Below are positions 35,331 to 63,478 of a DNA stretch of 64,000 nt, piece after piece. Position numbers and translations under genes: made by a program. This DNA comes from Bacillota bacterium (lineage in GTDB: Bacteria; Bacillota; SHA-98; Ch115), in the NCBI GenBank assembly GCA_013178415.1, contig JABLXA010000009.1, positions 1 through 64,000 of the forward strand, in the 5' to 3' direction. Under the pieces are notes generated by a model. It was not told the DNA's origin. It saw nothing but the letters and a program-made list of their open reading frames with translations, and searched no databases. Positions within the stretch are counted from its first letter, which is position 1. Every line of letters begins with the position of its first letter.

Positions 35331-35690
35331 TCATTGGGATTGCGATATAGATATAACTTTAGCCCCTCTCCAGAGCCGCTCAAGATCATAATATTGTCTT
35401 TCCGACTCGCCTAGAACATGCACTATGACATCACCATAATCCAATAATACCCACCCGCTTCCATCATCGCCCTCTTGATGATAAGGCAGGAACCCCTGTT
35501 TCTTGAGCGTATCACGAATAGCCTCAATGATAGCCGAAAGATGCGGCCTTGAAGTGCCACTTGCAATGACAAAATAATCCGCTATCGTTGACAGCTCCCG
35601 CAAATCCAGTATCGTCACGCCAATAGCCTTTTTCTCCGCAGCAGCATTTGAAATCTCGCGAGCTTTCATGCTTGAAAGCTCTTCCATCAC
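35331..35690 (-). CDS. rsfS: ribosomal silencing factor RsfS
   Basis: This 119-residue protein binds L14 and blocks subunit joining in stationary phase. It carries the family pattern VTILDLRELSTIADYFVIASGTS and GWVLLDYGDVIVHV. The start overlaps the yqeK stop by 4 nt, and yqeK-rsfS is the usual pair. The C-terminus (ISISQSQ) is short. Confidence 0.95.
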   Translation of the reverse strand: MMEELSSMKAREISNAAAEKKAIGVTILDLRELSTIADYFVIASGTSRPHLSAIIEAIRDTLKKQGFLPYHQEGDDGSGWVLLDYGDVIVHVLGESERQYYDLERLWRGAKVISISQSQ

Positions 35691-36286
35691 TCCACATCCT
35701 TTCCTTTTTCTGTGCCCCTGAGGCTGAGGAGAACACTATTCCTTGCAACCACTGCCCGCGGGTGAATCAACCCACTTCTCTTTATAAGATACCCCAATTT
35801 CTGATTCTGAGCCATGGTAAGGGCGACATCCAGATTAGACTTCACCGCCCGTCGAATGTCACTGACTCCCTTGTACGCCCGCCCGAGCTCAATACAGTCT
35901 GCGACATACACTATCTTCTCAAGAGGAGTCATATGCTCCCGGCCCGTAACATGAAATCTGATGGCATCCAATATCTCAGGGTCTTCTATCTCAAACTGGC
36001 GCCTGGCATATTCCGCGCCAAGCGGCCCATGAATCAACTTAGGCTCGGCCCTTTCTATTTCATCGAATACCACATGCCATTGCTCCGCCAACTTGAGAAC
36101 TACATCCTGCGGGAGATCTCTAGCGCAGTCATGAAGAAGCCCCGCAATCCTGGCCTTATCCATATCGACCCCATATCTCTCGGCAAGCTGCACGGCCATA
36201 TTCATGACCCCGATGGAATGACGATATCGGTGCGCCGTTACAAGTTTCCCAAGTCTCTCCGCCAATTCTGCCTCTGTCAGTCCCAT
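35687..36286 (-). CDS. yqeK: YqeK-type HD hydrolase (diadenosine tetraphosphatase)
   Basis: This 199-residue HD-domain protein has HSIGV (about 23-27) and LLHDCARDLP (about 51-60), with GPLGAEYARR and HVTGREHMTPLEKIVYVADCIE giving the remaining metal ligands. YqeK enzymes split Ap4A symmetrically. In this genome a Nudix domain that may also act on Ap4A is fused to IleRS. An 11-base poly-G tract forms a hairpin in its leader. Confidence 0.92.
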   Translation of the reverse strand: MGLTEAELAERLGKLVTAHRYRHSIGVMNMAVQLAERYGVDMDKARIAGLLHDCARDLPQDVVLKLAEQWHVVFDEIERAEPKLIHGPLGAEYARRQFEIEDPEILDAIRFHVTGREHMTPLEKIVYVADCIELGRAYKGVSDIRRAVKSNLDVALTMAQNQKLGYLIKRSGLIHPRAVVARNSVLLSLRGTEKGKDVE

Positions 36287-51982: not shown

Positions 51983-52972
51983 TCAAAACACTATCCTGAC
52001 ATTGTCAAATGACGAATCCCAGCCAAAACCGGCGCTCTCCAGGCGAATGAACTTGAGACGAGCAGGACGCGGATTCAGAATGCTGAGATTGTACCTCCAA
52101 GTCGTCCAAGTATTGAGCTCCTGAAATTCAGCATAGGAGTTCAACCCTCCCTGAGTTGGGAGGTGATAATAATAGGCCCTCGCGAAAACGTGTTCCTTCC
52201 CGAGGCGATCGAGGTAGCCCAGCACCACCCTGGCTGGATAGATTTCCTTGTCTGTGTAAATATGCCTGGTGTAGTCCCCGAGCTTCACGTCCAATGACAG
52301 AAAGACAAGGCCATACGAAGGCACATCCATGTCAAGGGCCTGTTCCACCCAGGCAGCAGCGAGAGATGGATGAGGCACGCGCGAGATCGTCAAGGCGAGC
52401 CCCTTATCACCTTGGACAATACTGAACTTTGGTTCAGGAGCGCCGGGATCACTTGTCGAACCAGCCTTCCACGAGCCAAGGAGACTCCGATTTTCAAAAT
52501 CCCCATTTACCGGGACATCCCCACGTGCCGCTGGCTTTGACTGGGTGGTGAAAGTCCAGGCATAATCCGAGACCATCTCTTCCCCGTCCTTATCCCGGAC
52601 ACCTCTCTTTAACATGATAGTGTAAGTGGTACCATACTGTAGGGGCTTTGCCGGTATCAGCACCACCACTGAATCATTGTTCAGAAACTGCCAGCTGTCG
52701 GGGTAGATGAGGTTCAGAGAAGGAACAACCGTTACCGACTGGACGACAGTTGAACGATCCACAGGTTCGCTGAACATGATATGGATTCCGCTGTCAACAG
52801 GCACATATTTCATGTCCTGTGAAGGATAGACCTGCACCACCCGGGGAGGGCCGGCCTTAGGTGTAGCGCCTTCAGAGCATGCAACCTGGGAATTAAGGGA
52901 CAAATTGGCTACGAAGATTCCCATAACTACCGTCAAGATGACCATTAAAGATAATCTCTGTCGATTTTTCAT
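51983..52972 (-). CDS. exported protein with bacterial Ig-like (SbsA-type) domain
   Basis: The ATG at 52972 (GGGGGGTTCGAAA upstream) gives 329 residues with a signal peptide (MKNRQRLSLMVILTVVMGIF). Cysteine in QVACSEG lies after the hydrophobic segment but is not a clear lipobox. Residues about 45-145 form a Big_5/SbsA Ig-like domain (VVQVYPSQDMKYVPVDSGIHIMFS). The rest looks like a beta-sandwich ending YNLSILNPRPARLKFIRLE. The role is probably cell-surface or spore-coat related. The specific function is unknown. Confidence 0.75.
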   Translation of the reverse strand: MKNRQRLSLMVILTVVMGIFVANLSLNSQVACSEGATPKAGPPRVVQVYPSQDMKYVPVDSGIHIMFSEPVDRSTVVQSVTVVPSLNLIYPDSWQFLNNDSVVVLIPAKPLQYGTTYTIMLKRGVRDKDGEEMVSDYAWTFTTQSKPAARGDVPVNGDFENRSLLGSWKAGSTSDPGAPEPKFSIVQGDKGLALTISRVPHPSLAAAWVEQALDMDVPSYGLVFLSLDVKLGDYTRHIYTDKEIYPARVVLGYLDRLGKEHVFARAYYYHLPTQGGLNSYAEFQELNTWTTWRYNLSILNPRPARLKFIRLESAGFGWDSSFDNVRIVF

Positions 52973-53071
52973 TTTCGAACCCCCCGCGCTACTGCAGGCA
53001 TAGAGCCTGTTTTCCCGCCCCACACCCCACACAGCAAAGTGAAGACAGAACCCGCCTAATAGATCTTTCGC

Positions 53072-56000
53072 CTAAGATCTACATTTTCCTGCATAGAATC
53101 TTTGCCATACATCCCGCGCCAGACCTCCATCAAAGGTCAAGACCCTTTCGGCCTCATCTATTGGTACGAATTTCGCGACGGAAAAACCTTCATTGCTATT
53201 GAACCGTGGACCCTCATCGTCAAGGGGGGTCATAATGAACCAATGAACCTCCTTTGATACCCAGCTACCATCAGATTCCGAGATAAAGGAGTATTTGGTG
53301 ATGCCAGCGGGCCCCATGATCTCGCACTTGACCCCAGCCTCTTCCTCCACTTCTCGCAACGCAGCCATTTCGAGGCTTTCGCCCTCTTCCACATGCCCCT
53401 TTGGCAAGACCCATTCATTTCTGTGGTTCTTCAAGATAAGGACCTCATTGCCGCGAAGCACTACTCCCCCTGCGCTGATTTCATGTCGCCGCGGTGATGG
53501 GCCGAGTCTGCGGACTGCTAACAGAACCGGTTCCCCATTCAGATTCCATTCCCTTGTCAGGATTCCGTCTGGGCTTACCCCCTGTCCGTCAGAAGACTTT
53601 GAATGAACTGGATATATCCCTGCATACTCCAGAAACTCTGATAAAGTCTCGCCCATTATATAATCCCTGTATGCATCCACCGACTCCCGGACCAGGTCGC
53701 TTGACCAATATTGCACAGCGATCCGGTCTTCGATATTGAAATCAGCTTCCTTGCGCATAGCCTGGATCTTATTGATCATTTCTCTGGCAAGGCCCTCCTT
53801 CAGAAGCTCCGGAGAAATCCTGGTGTCCAGGATGACAGCGATGCCGCCTTCCTCTACCGATACATAGCCCTCTTTCTCCTTCGTTGATATGACAAGGTCA
53901 TCCTGCATAAGCTGCACCCTTTCTCCACCCTGGAGGTCAACATTCACTATCCCTTTTGTCTTGAGTTCCTGCACCAGGGATGCCCCGGGGATCTCCCTCA
54001 AGGCAGCCTGCACGCGGGGCATCAGCTTTCCAAGCCGTGGACCGAGGACATCAAATCTAGGTTTGACTTCAAATGATACAAATGCCGAAATGTCATCCGC
54101 AAACTCCAGTGCCTTGACATTGAGCTCGCCGAGGATGATGTCTCTGGTCCTCTCGATCTTGGCAATATTTTCGCCTTTAGCGACCACGGTGAGGCATGCA
54201 AGAGGTTGCCGGTTCTTGATATTCACCTTACTCCTCGCTGCACGGCCAAGGTAGACCACCTTGCGGGCGAGCTCCATCTCCTCCTCTAGCTCATCCGAGA
54301 TCAATGCCCCATCTGCCTCCGGATAGTCACATAGGTGGACGCTCTCAGGAGTTCCGGGCTGCGGGTGGGAGAGAACCAGGTTTTGATAGATCTCCTCGCT
54401 GATGAAAGGGACAAAAGGTGCCGCAAGCTTGCATAAAGCTGTCAAGGACTCATACAGCGTAAGGTATGCGGCAGCCTTGTCAGTGGTCATCTCAGGCCCC
54501 CAATACCGCTGCCTGGATCTCCTCACATACCAATTGCTGAGATCATCCAAGAAGGCCTCTATCTTTCTCGCTGCGAAAGATACATCATACTCGTCCATTC
54601 CCTCTTGGACCTCGAGGATGGTCCTATTGAGCCTGGAGAGGATCCACCTATCCATGATACTCCTTTCCCCGGCAGGGATATTATGGGCTCTCGGATCGAA
54701 ACCGTCGATATTGGCATAGAGAACAAAGAAGGAATATACATTCCACAAGGTCCCCAAGAATCTTCTCGAAGCCTCGCCGATGGCCTCTGGATAAAAACGA
54801 GTCGGTGTCCATGGGGCATTCACAGTATAAAGATACCATCTCATCGCATCTGCCCCATATTGATTGAAGATGCTCCAGGTATCTACCACATTTCCCTTAT
54901 GTTTACTCATCTTCAGGCCTTCCTTATCCAGGATATGGCCCAGGACCACCACATTTTTGTAGGGAGCCTGCCCGAAAAGGAGCGTAGAATTCACAAGTAA
55001 TGTATAAAACCAACCCCGTGTCTGATCAATGGCCTCTGTTATGAAATCAGCGGGAAACCTATCCTTGAAGGTCTCTTGTCTCTCAAAGGGATAATGCCAC
55101 TGGGCGTAAGGCATCGACCCGGAGTCGAACCAGGCGTCGATGACTTCTTTCACACGATGAGCATCTCCACCACATTCAGGACACCTTAATACGACCTGAT
55201 CTATATATGGCCGGTGGAGCTCAAGATGGTCGGGAAGAGATTTTGCCATGCGCTTCAATTCATCTATGCTCCCCACGCAATGTTGATGGCCGCAGCTATT
55301 GCAAATCCAGATATTCAAGGGCGTACCCCAGTAACGCTCACGGCTCACAGCCCAGTCCACCACATTTTCCAGAAAATTCCCCATACGACCATCCTTGATA
55401 TAATCCGGTTGCCAGTTGATGGATCTATTGTTCTTTATCAATTCATCCTTGACAGCTGTTGTCTTTATGAACCAGGAAGACCTGGCATAATAAAGGAGTG
55501 GCGTATCGCAGCGCCAGCAGAACGGATAGGTATGGAGATAATCTTCAACCCTGTAAAGCGTGCCGTCTTTCTTCATCTGCTGGATGATGAGGGGGTCTGC
55601 CTCTTTCACGAACATCCCTTTCCACGGGGTTACCTCGCTTGTGAATTTCCCCTCCACATCCACCAGCTGAACCACTGGGAGATCATATTCCAAAGCCATT
55701 TTCATGTCATCTTCACCAAAGGCAGGAGCAATATGCACGATCCCGGTGCCTTCCTCCAGTGTCACAAAATCGCCGGTGACCACATAGTAGGCTTTCTTGT
55801 CAGGCTTCGCGAACGGGAAGAGCGGCTCATATCGCATGCCCTGCAAAGACCGGCCCGGGAACTCATCGAGGATCTCATAATCATCTTTCAACGCTGAATC
55901 AAGGAGGGCTTTTGCCAGAATAAACCTCTCTCCGGTGCCCTTGAGCTTGACCTCCGCATAGTCAAATTGCCTGGATACAGCAAGGGCTACATTTGATGGC

Positions 56001-56689
56001 AATGTCCAGGGAGTGGTGGTCCATACGAGAAAATACGTGTCTTCCTTCCCTTCCACCCGGAATTTCACATATACTGAAGGGTCGGTGACATCCTCATATC
56101 CTTGCGCCACTTCATGGCTTGAGAGAGCAGTGCCACATCTGGGACAATATGGGACCACCTTATAGCCCTGGTAGAGAAGCCCTTTTTCCCAGATCTGCCT
56201 CAATGCCCACCATACGGATTCAATATAGTCATCAGTATAAGTAACATAAGCGTTGTCCAGATCGATCCAAAACCCGAGCCTCTCCGTCATCTTTTCCCAT
56301 TCGCGCTTGTATTTGAATACACTCTCCTTGCATTTCTCAACGAAACGACCAACGCCATACTTCTCTATGTCTGGCTTGCCGCTTATCCCTAATTCCCTCT
56401 CTACCTCCAGCTCCACAGGCAATCCGTGGGTATCCCATCCGCCCTTTCTCTCCACATAAAAGCCCTTCATGACTTTATATCTGAGAAAGACATCCTTGAT
56501 GGCCCGTGTGAGAGCATGGCCGGGATGCGGCATGCCATTAGCGGTGGGAGGGCCTTCAAAAAACACGAAACGCCCCCGGTCGCACCTGAGCTTCATACTC
56601 TTTTCAAATATTCCATTCTCTTTCCAAAAGGCCCCTATACGTTCCTCCATATCTGGAAAACTCACATCTGAAGGAATCTTCCTGAACAA
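53072..56689 (-). CDS. ileS: isoleucyl-tRNA synthetase fused to a C-terminal Nudix hydrolase
   Basis: From TTG 56689 (AGGAGG upstream, 8 nt) the protein is 1205 residues. Residues 1 to about 1065 are a full IleRS with FFEGPPTANGMPHPGHAL (HIGH as HPGH), WDTHGLPVE, the editing domain, KMSKHKGN (KMSKS) and the anticodon domain. They resemble the eukaryote-like IleRS2 form. Residues about 1067-1205 (53075-53491) are a Nudix domain with WVLPKGHVEEGES and a complete Nudix box, GX5EX7REVXEEXGV, at about 1098-1120. The Nudix part follows the normal IleRS end in frame and is most like Ap4A/mutT-type hydrolases. Confidence 0.95.
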   Translation of the reverse strand: MFRKIPSDVSFPDMEERIGAFWKENGIFEKSMKLRCDRGRFVFFEGPPTANGMPHPGHALTRAIKDVFLRYKVMKGFYVERKGGWDTHGLPVELEVERELGISGKPDIEKYGVGRFVEKCKESVFKYKREWEKMTERLGFWIDLDNAYVTYTDDYIESVWWALRQIWEKGLLYQGYKVVPYCPRCGTALSSHEVAQGYEDVTDPSVYVKFRVEGKEDTYFLVWTTTPWTLPSNVALAVSRQFDYAEVKLKGTGERFILAKALLDSALKDDYEILDEFPGRSLQGMRYEPLFPFAKPDKKAYYVVTGDFVTLEEGTGIVHIAPAFGEDDMKMALEYDLPVVQLVDVEGKFTSEVTPWKGMFVKEADPLIIQQMKKDGTLYRVEDYLHTYPFCWRCDTPLLYYARSSWFIKTTAVKDELIKNNRSINWQPDYIKDGRMGNFLENVVDWAVSRERYWGTPLNIWICNSCGHQHCVGSIDELKRMAKSLPDHLELHRPYIDQVVLRCPECGGDAHRVKEVIDAWFDSGSMPYAQWHYPFERQETFKDRFPADFITEAIDQTRGWFYTLLVNSTLLFGQAPYKNVVVLGHILDKEGLKMSKHKGNVVDTWSIFNQYGADAMRWYLYTVNAPWTPTRFYPEAIGEASRRFLGTLWNVYSFFVLYANIDGFDPRAHNIPAGERSIMDRWILSRLNRTILEVQEGMDEYDVSFAARKIEAFLDDLSNWYVRRSRQRYWGPEMTTDKAAAYLTLYESLTALCKLAAPFVPFISEEIYQNLVLSHPQPGTPESVHLCDYPEADGALISDELEEEMELARKVVYLGRAARSKVNIKNRQPLACLTVVAKGENIAKIERTRDIILGELNVKALEFADDISAFVSFEVKPRFDVLGPRLGKLMPRVQAALREIPGASLVQELKTKGIVNVDLQGGERVQLMQDDLVISTKEKEGYVSVEEGGIAVILDTRISPELLKEGLAREMINKIQAMRKEADFNIEDRIAVQYWSSDLVRESVDAYRDYIMGETLSEFLEYAGIYPVHSKSSDGQGVSPDGILTREWNLNGEPVLLAVRRLGPSPRRHEISAGGVVLRGNEVLILKNHRNEWVLPKGHVEEGESLEMAALREVEEEAGVKCEIMGPAGITKYSFISESDGSWVSKEVHWFIMTPLDDEGPRFNSNEGFSVAKFVPIDEAERVLTFDGGLARDVWQRFYAGKCRS

Positions 56690-56894
56690 CCCTGTTTCCT
56701 CCTGTCTATAAGAAAACTCTCGTCCGTCGGGACGAGAGTTTTTCATCGCGGCGCCATTCAGTTCCCCGCAGAATCTGCAAAGCCCGCACCACACGTCCGC
56801 CTACTGAGACCTCACACAATGACTGCAGCTATCTCGTACCTCGCGACCTGCACGTAGAATTATCAGACAATTCCAGCCATAATATTGGATTATA
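56690..56894 (-). promoter_or_regulatory. ileS leader with attenuator and degenerate T-box
   Basis: A TATAAT (56889-56894) starts a leader of about 190 nt. Just before the ileS ribosome binding site a perfect 13-bp hairpin (56713-56742) is followed on the minus strand by CTTAT, a terminator-like structure whose 5' arm contains CGTCCC. Upstream TGGCGCCGCG resembles the T-box TGGNACCGCG. It has a mismatch and would not pair with discriminator A, so regulation by tRNA is uncertain. No -35 match is convincing. Confidence 0.45.
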
Positions 56895-58591: not shown

Positions 58592-60322
58592 CTACTTAGG
58601 AAAACGCCCCCTGGCCACATATTTCGTATGCAGGAGCTCATGGGCTTTATGGCTCAACGGGCTGCCCAGAAATTCTTCATAGAGGGCCTTGACAGCAGGA
58701 TTGAGATGAGACTTTCTCAGCTTCATGCCCCGGTCTTCTCGGTAGATAGCCTCTATCCGTTTCGCCCTAATTTCGTCATCCGTTGGTATTGGCTGGCCTC
58801 CTCCGCCTATGCACCCTCCCGGGCAGCACATTATCTCGATGAAGTGATAATCAGCTGTACCGTCTTGAACCTTGTCCAGCAATTTACGCGCATTGCCGAG
58901 CCCGTGCGCCACCGCTACCTTGACTTTCATGCCATCCAGGGGCACGATCGCTTCCTTTACGCCGGTAAGGCCTCGGATCTCCTGGAATTCCAGATTGTCA
59001 AGTTCCCTATCTGTTACTACTTCATATACTGTCCTTAGAGCCGCTTCCATAACCCCACCTGTGGCCCCAAAGATGACTCCTGCTCCTGTGGATATCCCCA
59101 GAGGATCATCATAACCTTCTTCAGGGAGATTTTCAAGTTTCAATCCCGCGCTTCGGAGCATCCTCCCTAACTCCCGTGAGGTCAGAACCGCGTCAACGTC
59201 GACATGACCACTCGATGTCATCTCCGGCCTCTTTGCCTCAAATTTCTTGGCAGTGCAAGGCATTATGGATGTCACGAAGATATCCTTCGGGTCTATGCCA
59301 GCCTTCTGAGCATAATATGTCTTTGCTAGCGCGCCAAACATCTGCTGCGGAGACTTGCACGTCGAGAGATTGGGCAGAAGATCTGGATAGAAGTGCTCAA
59401 TGAATTTTATCCAGCCAGGACTGCATGATGTAATCAGCGGAAGGGGACCTCTATTCTTGAGTCTTTCCAGAAATTCATGGCCCTCCTCCATGATGGTAAG
59501 GTCCGCGGTAAAATCAGTGTCAAAGACCTTGTCAAACCCGAGGCGGCGTAGTGCCGCAACTAATTTCCCGGTGACCAAAGAACCTGGGGGCAAGCCTACC
59601 TCTTCCCCAACTGTAGCCCTCACCGCCGGGGCAGTCTGGACCACCACGTGCTTATTGGGATCCGCCAGCGCCTCATAGACCTCATTTGTTGAGTCTCGCT
59701 CGGTAAGCGCGCCGGTCGGGCAAACAAGAGTACACTGACCACATTGGGCGCAAGCCACTTGCCCTAGACTGTCGCCGAAGGCTGGGGCGATCATCGTTTC
59801 AAATCCTCGCTCGTTGGGCGCAATTGCAAAGACGGTTTGCACCTGAGAACATACACTCATGCACCTGCGGCACAAAATGCATTTATTGGGATTCCTGACA
59901 ATGGCGGGAGAGGAGGTATCTTTGGGAAATTCAATTCTCTCCCCTTCGTATTCAACTTCCCTGATTCCGAGACGCTCAGCAAGCTCCTGCAGCTCGCAAT
60001 TCCGATTGCGTTCACAGGTAAGACATTCGAGGGGATGGTTGGATATTATGAGCTCAAGGACTGTCCTCCTGGCCTCCCTCACCGCCGGGGTGTTGGTTCT
60101 TACCACCATTCCCTCGGCGACAGGGGTAACGCAAGATGCCTGAAGAGACTTGGCTCCCTCTATCTCAACCACGCAAATTCTACATGCCCCCACGACATTT
60201 ATGTCTTTAAGATAGCACAGGCTGGGAACATCGATCCCCGAGGCCCTGGCAGCCTCGAGCACAGAGGTTCCGCGGGGCACCGAAACCCTTTGACCATCTA
60301 TGGTTAACGTGACCATATCCAT
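58592..60322 (-). CDS. hydA: [FeFe] hydrogenase catalytic subunit HydA (HndD type)
   Basis: The protein has 576 residues. It has an N-terminal 2Fe-2S domain (CYLKDINVVGACRIC), a His-ligated 4Fe-4S site (NHPLECLTCERNRNC) and two 4Fe-4S clusters (CILCRRCMSVC, CAQCGQCTLVCP). The H-cluster domain has all three signatures: TSCSPGWIKF, MPCTAKKFEAKRPE and EIMCCPGGCIGGGGQP. The catalytic cysteines are all present, so it should make or oxidise H2. This is the group A trimeric/tetrameric NAD(P)-linked type. It is transcribed after hydB. Confidence 0.96.
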   Translation of the reverse strand: MDMVTLTIDGQRVSVPRGTSVLEAARASGIDVPSLCYLKDINVVGACRICVVEIEGAKSLQASCVTPVAEGMVVRTNTPAVREARRTVLELIISNHPLECLTCERNRNCELQELAERLGIREVEYEGERIEFPKDTSSPAIVRNPNKCILCRRCMSVCSQVQTVFAIAPNERGFETMIAPAFGDSLGQVACAQCGQCTLVCPTGALTERDSTNEVYEALADPNKHVVVQTAPAVRATVGEEVGLPPGSLVTGKLVAALRRLGFDKVFDTDFTADLTIMEEGHEFLERLKNRGPLPLITSCSPGWIKFIEHFYPDLLPNLSTCKSPQQMFGALAKTYYAQKAGIDPKDIFVTSIMPCTAKKFEAKRPEMTSSGHVDVDAVLTSRELGRMLRSAGLKLENLPEEGYDDPLGISTGAGVIFGATGGVMEAALRTVYEVVTDRELDNLEFQEIRGLTGVKEAIVPLDGMKVKVAVAHGLGNARKLLDKVQDGTADYHFIEIMCCPGGCIGGGGQPIPTDDEIRAKRIEAIYREDRGMKLRKSHLNPAVKALYEEFLGSPLSHKAHELLHTKYVARGRFPK

Positions 60323-60421: not shown

Positions 60422-63400
60422 TCAGTCCTTTATATCACAGCGCAGGCACCGCATTGCTTCCTGGAGCGCGGCAGCCTCTGTAAAACCAAGCTCTACTTCC
60501 CTGAAACCTGGGTACCTGGCGCTGATATCCAGACTTTCGACCTTCTGCCTTGGCATCTCCGTCTCGATTATCTCACCGGCGAGCTCTCGTCCAAGATCGG
60601 GATGAGTCTCGATCACTCCATCACCGCCGAGATATTTGTCTATCTCCATGGCCGCGCATCTACCCTGGCCAATAGCGCCTATAACTGTATCCGGGCCCGT
60701 GACGCAATCACCGCCGGCAAATATCCCATCCGCTCCGGTGGCAAATGTCTTTGGATCTGCAAGGATTGTCGACCACCTTGTGGTCTCTATGCCGCTATCC
60801 CGGGGCACAAAGGAGATATCTGGTTGTTGACTGATGGCTGGGATGATAAGATCCACATCGATGATGAACTCGGAGCCGACCACCGGCGTGGGACGCCTAC
60901 GGCCAGTGCGATCGAATTCGCCCAGCACCATCCTGATACATTCCATATTGGTCACCTTGCCAGCCTTCCCCAAAATCCTTGATGGGGCCGTAAGGAAATG
61001 TATCCTTATGCCTTCCTTTTCAGCTTCCATGACCTCGTAGGGTTCCGCCGGCATCTCCTCACGCGTCCTCCTGTAGAGGATATGCACTTCTTTGGCGCCC
61101 AACCTGAGAGCGGTCCTAGCCGCATCGATGGCGGCATTCCCGCCGCCGATGACAGCGACCCGGCGAGGGACTCCGGTCCGCTGGCCAAGGTTGACCTCGC
61201 GGAGGAAATCTATGGCATTCACAACACCTTCGAGGTCTTCGCCAGGCGCACCCAGCTTCTGCCCGAGATGAGCCCCTATTGCGATGAATATGGCCTTGAA
61301 CCCTTGTTTCTTCAAGTCCTCCAGTGAGATATCTTTCCCGATCCGGGTATTCAGTCTGATATCCACGCCAAGGGCCTTTATAGTCTCTATTTCCGCCTCG
61401 AGCACCCTTTTAGGCAGCCTATATTCTGGAATACCCACGGCCAGCATTCCGCCCGCCACTGGCAGGGCATCGAAGACTACAACCTTGTGTCCCAGTCTTG
61501 CCAGATAATAGGCAGCAGATAGGCCGCATGGCCCGGCTCCGATTATGGCTACATTACTTGCCGCTGGGTTGTTCCGCTTGACGGGTGGCGCCATGGGAGG
61601 TCTTTTCATCTCATAATCAGCGGCAAACCGCTTCAGGGCGCAAATAGCCACCGGCTCGTCGATTTGGGCGCGCCGGCACTTTAGCTCACAAGGATGCGTG
61701 CAGACTCTCCCGCATATGGATGGGAATGGGTTCTTATCCCTGATCACGGTAACAGCGTCAGAATACCTTTTTTGCCTGATAAGACTGATGTATCTGGGTA
61801 CATCCACACTCGCAGGGCACGCATTTTGACATGGAGATTCAAATAGGCTTGCGCACACTGAAGCCGGACACTTATGATCCCGTATGTGGGCATCATATTC
61901 CTCTCTGAAATAGCGAATCGTGGTCAGCACGGGGTTAGGAGCAGTTTGTCCGAGGCCACATAAGGCAGTCTCCTTGATCCATTGTCCGAGTTTGATGAGA
62001 CGCTCCACATCGCCTTCTCGTCCCTGGCCCCTGGTGATCCTGGTCAGGATCTCCAGCATCCTCTTGGTTCCAATTCTACAAGGAGCGCATTTGCCGCATG
62101 ATTCATCCTGGGTAAATTCAAGGAAGAATCGTGCCAGGTCCACCATGCAAGTATCTTCATCCATGACTATGAGCCCACCGGACCCCATGATGGTTCCGAG
62201 TTCCTTCAAGGAATCATAGTCAACCGGCGTGTTCAAATACTCTTTGGGGATGCACCCCCCTGACGGTCCTCCCGTCTGGGCGGCTTTGAACTTCTTGCCT
62301 CCTGGTATTCCGCCGCCGATGTCATAGATGATCTCACCCAGGGTAGTTCCCATTGGAACCTCAACTAAACCTGTATTCCTGATCTTCCCTGCCAGGGCAA
62401 ATACCTTGGTTCCTTTGCTCCTTTCCGTCCCGATGGATGCAAACCATTCCGCGCCGTTCAAGATAATGGGGGGGATATTCGCGTAAGTCTCGACATTGTT
62501 GATCAAGGTGGGGCAGCCCCAGAGACCCTCATTGGCTGGGAAAGGTGGCCTTGGACGCGGTTCGCCGCGCCTTCCCTCGATGGAAGCCAAAAGCGCCGTC
62601 TCCTCCCCGCAGACGAAGGCCCCTGCGCCTACTCTTATTTCTATATCGAAATCGAACCCTGTCCCAAAGATATCATTGCCAAGGAGACCCTGCTCTCGGG
62701 CTTGCCCAATTGCGTGGGTGAGATGTTTTATCGCCAGGGGATATTCGGCCCGGACATATATATAGCCTTGATGCGCCCCGATGGCGTAACCTGCGATAGC
62801 CATGGCCTCCAGCACTGAATGCGGGTCTCCTTCAAGGACACTCCGATCCATAAAGGCACCGGGATCTCCTTCATCTGCATTGCACACCACATATTTCGGG
62901 TTCCCCTTAGCTTTGGCGCAAAACTCCCATTTCAGCCCCGTGGGGAAGCCACCTCCCCCTCTTCCGCGCAGCCCTGACCTTTTGACTGTATCAATGACCT
63001 CTTCCGGTGTCATTTTGGTAAGCACCTTGCCAAGCGCAGAATATCCATCAGAGGCAATGTATTCTTCTATGACGAGCGGATTTATTCGCCCCGTATTCCT
63101 GAGGGCCACGCGAGTCTGACGGTTGAAGAATCCCATCTCCTGGAAAGTAGGCACTGCGGCGCCGGTGACCGGCTCGGTATATAACAGGTCTCGTACTATG
63201 CGGCCCTTGAGGAGATGTTCCTCAGCGATCCTATCGGCGTCCGCAGGCTTGAGACGCTGGTACAGTACACCCTCGGGATATATAATCATCATAGGTCCCA
63301 GGTCGCAGGGCCCCATGCATCCTGTGACCACCACTTTTACTTCCTGTTGGAGTCCCAGGCGCTCCACGGCATCCAGGAGCGCAGTTTTTACCCCTTCACA

Positions 63401-63478
63401 GCCGGATGATAGGCACCCGGCCCCACCACATACCAGAACATGTGATCGAAAAAGATCCATACTAGAGCCTCCCTCCAT
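60422..63478 (-). CDS. hydB: HydB/NuoF-like flavoprotein fused to GltD/NfnB-like NAD(P)H oxidoreductase
   Basis: The protein has 1018 residues. The first half is HydB/HndC: a thioredoxin-like 2Fe-2S domain ([21 protein letters not shown]), the NuoF FMN/NADH core ([29 protein letters not shown]) and the 4Fe-4S site [10 protein letters not shown]...CGLG. From about 545 the usual ferredoxin tail is replaced by a Fer4_20 domain ([25 protein letters not shown]) and a GltD-type oxidoreductase with an FAD motif ([17 protein letters not shown]). The second nucleotide motif is [13 protein letters not shown] followed by [10 protein letters not shown], typical of NADPH-binding GltD/NfnB. Confidence 0.94.

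Follow-up and report, generated by a model that had tools for sequence, protein, structure and literature searches.

The window, a 64,000-nucleotide stretch of contig JABLXA010000009.1, carries on its reverse strand one continuous open reading frame (53072..56794), in which an isoleucyl-tRNA synthetase (IleRS) runs into a Nudix hydrolase domain and ends with the stop codon at 53072..53074. The earlier note had described this passage as free of stops and frameshifts, and indeed the frame is unbroken and is matched by IleRS and Nudix domain models. The IleRS moiety (53489..56689, residues 1-1067 including the end linker) was delimited by Pfam, TIGR00392 and alignment. It contains a HIGH-type motif, NGMPHPGH (56516-56539), a KMSKS-type motif, KMSKHKGN (54890-54913), and an anticodon-binding domain, with DUF5915 as its C-terminal domain. 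Pfam gives 422.6 bits for tRNA-synt_1, 127 bits for Anticodon_1 and 175 bits for DUF5915, and the TIGR00392 (ileS) model scores 988 bits against a cut-off of 621.4. As judged from its sequence, this part is of the long, MupA-like (type 2) kind. It has the catalytic, anticodon and DUF5915 domains in common with type 2 bacterial IleRS and reaches 1066 bits with the MupA model; this falls short of the cut-off of 1900 bits, and the protein is therefore not MupA proper; the fusion also adds the Nudix domain. In the host genome (3.57 Mb, rated 100% complete), the fusion protein is the sole IleRS above cut-off, and its IleRS half is therefore probably essential.

The two parts are connected by the linker VRRLGPSPR (53489..53515, reverse strand), recognized from the alignment and from a low-confidence stretch of the structural model; its length in the host genome is about 6-9 residues. 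The C-terminal Nudix domain (53075..53488, residues 1068-1205) is supported by Pfam NUDIX, an AlphaFold2 model and fold matches. Its Nudix box, GHVEEGESLEMAALREVEEEAGV (53330..53398, residues 1098-1120), agrees with the consensus GX5EX7REUXEEXGU at every position, so that the full box reported earlier is borne out. The NUDIX model (PF00293) scores 63.3 bits on the fusion frame against a cut-off of 21.1 (E 3.1e-17, residues 1105-1215 of the listed 1240). The separate IleRS proteins of relatives end a few to a few tens of residues past the position where the linker starts. The tail beyond the conserved core is therefore about 138-146 residues long, in line with the extension of about 139 residues proposed before. 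Read by eye, the stretch just upstream of the Nudix domain shows no suitable in-frame start codon, paired with a ribosome-binding site, from which this domain could be translated separately.

The GTG listed as the start (56794) is unlikely to be the true one. A TTG at 56689 lies about 8 nt downstream of an AGGAGG and aligns with the points at which the proteins of relatives begin (MFRK/MFKK); translation probably begins there, and the protein would therefore have 1205 residues, not 1240. Before this probable start, 56713..56770 on the same strand holds a perfect hairpin and what looks like the remnant of a T-box (TGGCGCCGCG ... CTCTCGTCCC). The Rfam T-box model does not recognize this host leader. 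The leader of the fused gene in the only other genome sampled from the host family (G001) scores 72.5 bits with this model (E 1e-15), below gathering, and ileS of four relatives (G002, G003, G010 and G012) has a T-box leader at gathering score. Because the ileS leader of these relatives is a T-box, their downstream Nudix gene could rise with uncharged tRNA-Ile.

Directly downstream of the fusion gene, Pfam identifies a Big_5 domain protein (51983..53032, reverse strand). In relatives, the Big_5 gene follows the separate nudix gene; in one family, a gene for a YfcE-like phosphodiesterase, assigned by eye, stands between them (L046 4557-5114, L044, L052, L057 and L061). It overlaps the end of nudix in several genomes and is missing at that place in the window.

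Among solved proteins, the sequences nearest to the Nudix domain are Thermus thermophilus Ndx1, an Ap6A/ApnA hydrolase (1vc8, E 3.5e-19), and the Ap4A hydrolase aq_158 of Aquifex aeolicus (3i7u, E 9.3e-18); a profile search gave 91 and 103 bits for these two ApnA hydrolases. The likeness to this characterized type covers the full domain in both sequence and fold, with 36-41% identity in the fold alignments. An AlphaFold2 model of the domain, made from a 14-row alignment, has a mean pLDDT of 94.1. The fold search ranks 3i7u and 1vc8/1vc9 at the top, followed by Chlamydia CT771 with hydrolysed Ap4A, and its matches include the Ndx1-Ap6A and CT771-Ap4A complexes as well as the human and C. elegans Ap4A hydrolases. 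Across 14 aligned homologues, the R-E-x-x-E-E catalytic core of the box does not vary, nor do Y66 and W83 of the domain, downstream of the box. In the sequence alignment, Ndx1 likewise has this Tyr and an EVHWF motif; it has the Nudix box and the following Tyr/Trp positions in common with the fusion domain. A model of the full-length protein, based on a thin alignment, reached a mean pLDDT of 61.8 and a pTM of 0.40, with a poor catalytic half; the Nudix domain and the IleRS C-terminal domain are each confident, separated by low-confidence residues 1058-1062 of the modelled sequence. The earlier suggestion that Nudix proteins with this motif often cleave Ap4A is supported to this extent: cleavage of Ap4A or a related ApnA would be the best homology-based guess for this domain. 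Homology is a poor guide to the substrates of Nudix enzymes, which counts against the ApnA assignment.

The class of the host was sampled with 17 genomes, in 15 of which the ileS-nudix pair could be read. The order ileS then Nudix was found in all 15, and in two the genes are fused. Both fused genes come from a small family of uncultured bacteria that resemble spore formers; the second fused gene is that of G001, which belongs to another genus and a separate assembly and encodes 1216 residues from the aligned start. Its linker is longer than that of the host and different in sequence. In the 13 other genomes with a readable pair, from two other families, an orthologous-looking Nudix gene follows ileS directly as a gene of its own. 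The ends of these separate genes often overlap or almost touch, with the stop/start arrangements AATGA in G004 and GAATGA in G006. In G008 the Nudix gene likewise lies downstream, after a larger gap. G016 gave no Nudix match, and there the ileS match falls at the end of a contig. In the separate Nudix protein of G008 (L039 1237-1788), the final part is preceded by a low-complexity insert, about 50 residues long and rich in Gly and Pro.

A stop codon between ileS and the Nudix gene in close relatives had been named beforehand as a sign that the fusion is a sequencing artefact. Such a stop is present in 13 genomes, but the artefact reading does not follow from it and is refuted by the fused sister genus: G001, assembled separately, shows the same fusion with another linker, and the host frame contains no frameshift or internal stop. 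The probability left to an assembly or sequencing error is negligible.

The Nudix domains of the two fused genes are 57% identical and keep their catalytic residues, and the IleRS parts differ by 24%. Over 138 codons, the Nudix domains differ at 50, 42 and 85 sites in codon positions 1, 2 and 3, respectively, with no stop. Since third positions change most, no stop has arisen and 57% of residues are identical, the comparison points to purifying selection on the Nudix domain, as expected of a working domain. Most simply, the fusion is a derived join, made once in the family, of an older ileS-nudix pair. In a deep Nudix tree, the Nudix genes of the class were not recovered as one clade, and one clade was not rejected either (p-AU 0.37); the history of an old pair therefore rests on synteny, and the Nudix gene may have been replaced at the same place during the history of the class.

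Beyond the class, a profile of its Nudix domains was run against 398 genomes of the phylum, and only the host and G001 have this domain in a frame of more than 600 residues. A wide spread of the fusion in the phylum, with this type of Nudix domain, is thus rejected (2/398 genomes). Two shorter candidates were also set aside: a 586-aa Nudix frame (L107/L164) seems to owe its length to a spurious extension upstream, and a 404-aa frame (L165) looks like a Nudix domain joined to a HAD-like phosphatase. Among the matches listed from a public reference-genome collection, the best 80 loci held no IleRS near this Nudix in other lineages. The literature searched held no description of an IleRS-Nudix protein. 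The domain combination is novel, and its parts are known.

Homologues of the Nudix domain were found next to other genes of tRNA charging. They adjoin argS in G033, G177 and G077 (argS loci L067, L203 and L220) and thrS in G395, G226 and G317 (thrS loci L202, L206 and L209), and also at L082 and L105. Among the loci listed, gatA is the neighbour in at least 19, and gatB flanks the opposite side in at least eight, the named records being Elusimicrobiota; there the Nudix gene lies between gatA and gatB (L095 3502-6864, L070, L071, L081, L098, L118, L124 and L139). At least four of the loci listed have a homologue between yvcK and whiA. Other homologues adjoin selB, ychF, UPF0182 and penicillin-binding protein genes, and many neighbours are unrelated. 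With one locus taken per family, an aminoacyl-tRNA synthetase gene is adjacent in five of 41 families outside the class, against about 0.8-1.6 expected from rough gene counts, a comparison that treats as independent families which are not, and that becomes far weaker if they share ancestry. These neighbourhoods are suggestive of a link between the Nudix homologues and tRNA charging.

Another candidate for Ap4A removal is encoded in some of these genomes. The window itself contains, on the reverse strand, a gene (35687-36286) with a match at 35738-36247 to YqeK (TIGR00488), a family of symmetrical Ap4A hydrolases (PMC10148737). YqeK is also encoded in G001-G003. Because of YqeK, the Nudix domain is not the sole candidate for Ap4A clearance in the host, and its role would be partly redundant. 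ApaH gave no model match in any of the 17 class genomes. Pointing in the opposite direction, six genomes of one relative genus, which keep the separate ileS-linked Nudix gene, were matched by neither the YqeK nor the ApaH model.

What can be read in the DNA is the fusion, with its intact Nudix box and complete synthetase, its conservation in a sister genus, and two neighbouring but unjoined genes in relatives. The substrate, the reaction and any benefit of tethering are what we infer. That the separate gene of close relatives is adjacent suggests that synthetase and Nudix work together. With moderate confidence, we propose that the fusion protein is a bifunctional enzyme that arose from two co-oriented neighbour genes, a type 2 IleRS and an ApnA-type Nudix hydrolase that would act on the ApnA made by the synthetase. 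Aminoacyl-tRNA synthetases are a recognized source of Ap4A, formed from aminoacyl-adenylate and ATP, and Nudix hydrolases split Ap4A to ATP and AMP (PMC10148737, PMC7705103). The IleRS half would charge tRNA-Ile. Like other enzymes of its kind, it would release some Ap4A when ATP attacks the aminoacyl-adenylate bound to it, and the tethered Nudix domain would split ApnA asymmetrically (Ap4A to ATP and AMP) at or near its source.

The closest known systems each differ from the fusion. Ndx1 and aq_158 are free-standing small proteins, whereas the Nudix domain of the fusion, a putative ApnA hydrolase, is the C-terminus of a synthetase. NCBIfam offers a precedent for the joining of IleRS to an enzyme domain of another kind, ileS_w_GNAT (NF040702), although that domain is an acetyltransferase and not a Nudix, and the model reaches 347 on the fusion against a cut-off of 1999. 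By its description, Bacillus NahA (YvcI) is comparable as a Firmicute Nudix that acts on a stress-related nucleotide, as the fusion domain may; it differs in being free-standing and in having (p)ppGpp as substrate (PMC7584652).

The most probable of the other explanations, though still rather unlikely, is a neutral fusion, in which the stop between two co-transcribed genes was lost and the coupling is no more than matched expression. The short intergenic gaps and stop/start overlaps of relatives such as G004 and G006 offer an easy origin for it, and the linkers of the two fused genomes differ in length and sequence. Against neutrality, the fusion is retained in two genera that have diverged in their IleRS parts as described and have kept the catalytic residues of their Nudix parts, and the pair stays adjacent throughout the class. 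The Nudix domain might instead be an alarmone hydrolase that turns (p)ppGpp into pGpp, as the Firmicute Nudix NahA does (PMC7584652), and would let the synthetase shut off, locally, the stringent response that a shortage of charged tRNA-Ile brings on. The T-box-like leader of the fused sister gene, through which expression would rise with uncharged tRNA-Ile, fits this idea, as does a Nudix protein encoded between yvcK and whiA (L163, G207), which is 44% identical to the domain in the window. The yvcI gene of B. subtilis lies in the same gene cluster as yvcK and whiA. However, the position of the L163 protein need not make it a NahA, and among solved proteins it is itself nearest to Ap4A hydrolases (3i7u, 6.2e-25). 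We regard an alarmone hydrolase as improbable.

Two further readings concern other substrates of the Nudix family. RppH of E. coli acts on both Ap4A and RNA 5' ends, and NpnN act as RNA caps (PMC10148737; PMC7044304), so that the two activities overlap within one family. The Nudix domain could accordingly be an RNA pyrophosphohydrolase of the RppH or YtkD type, acting on 5' ends or removing NpnN caps, and attached to an enzyme that binds tRNA. The NCBIfam models for RppH (27.4 vs 116) and YtkD (25.3 vs 154.4) nevertheless stay far under their cut-offs, and we consider this function very unlikely. Slightly less probable again is a nucleotide-pool sanitiser of the MutT type acting on 8-oxo-(d)GTP: the MutT1 and MutT models match weakly, and MutT1 folds appear in the fold search after the ApnA hydrolases, but every MutT equivalog in NCBIfam is far under its cut-off (MutT1 35.6 vs 475; mutt 20 vs 97.9). 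Moreover, the MutT1-like entry 9cxx in the fold list is described as a diadenosine polyphosphatase, so that a weak match of this kind does not separate the two activities.

A wider and more tentative picture is possible, which we hold to be less likely than not. One polypeptide would both make and destroy Ap4A, as a self-cleaning synthetase, or would tune another starvation nucleotide, and so set an alarmone level at an isoleucine-dependent enzyme; the Nudix subfamily repeatedly paired with ileS, argS, thrS and gatA/gatB might then be a housekeeping partner of aminoacylation. Whether the Ap4A from synthetases is signal or waste is a long-standing question. The natural fusion, together with relatives in which the genes are adjacent, offers a direct test of whether the removal of Ap4A at the synthetase is something cells require, and the recurring argS, thrS and gatA/gatB neighbourhoods offer further test cases. 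The locus is of moderate interest in that the Ap4A question becomes testable in one polypeptide.

Elsewhere in the window, the reverse strand encodes a 1018-residue NuoF-like protein (60422-63478), the C-terminal half of which is a glutamate-synthase-like FAD/NAD oxidoreductase. Its gene adjoins that of a group A6 [FeFe] hydrogenase (58592-60322, reverse strand), and the two proteins possibly form an electron-bifurcating hydrogenase.
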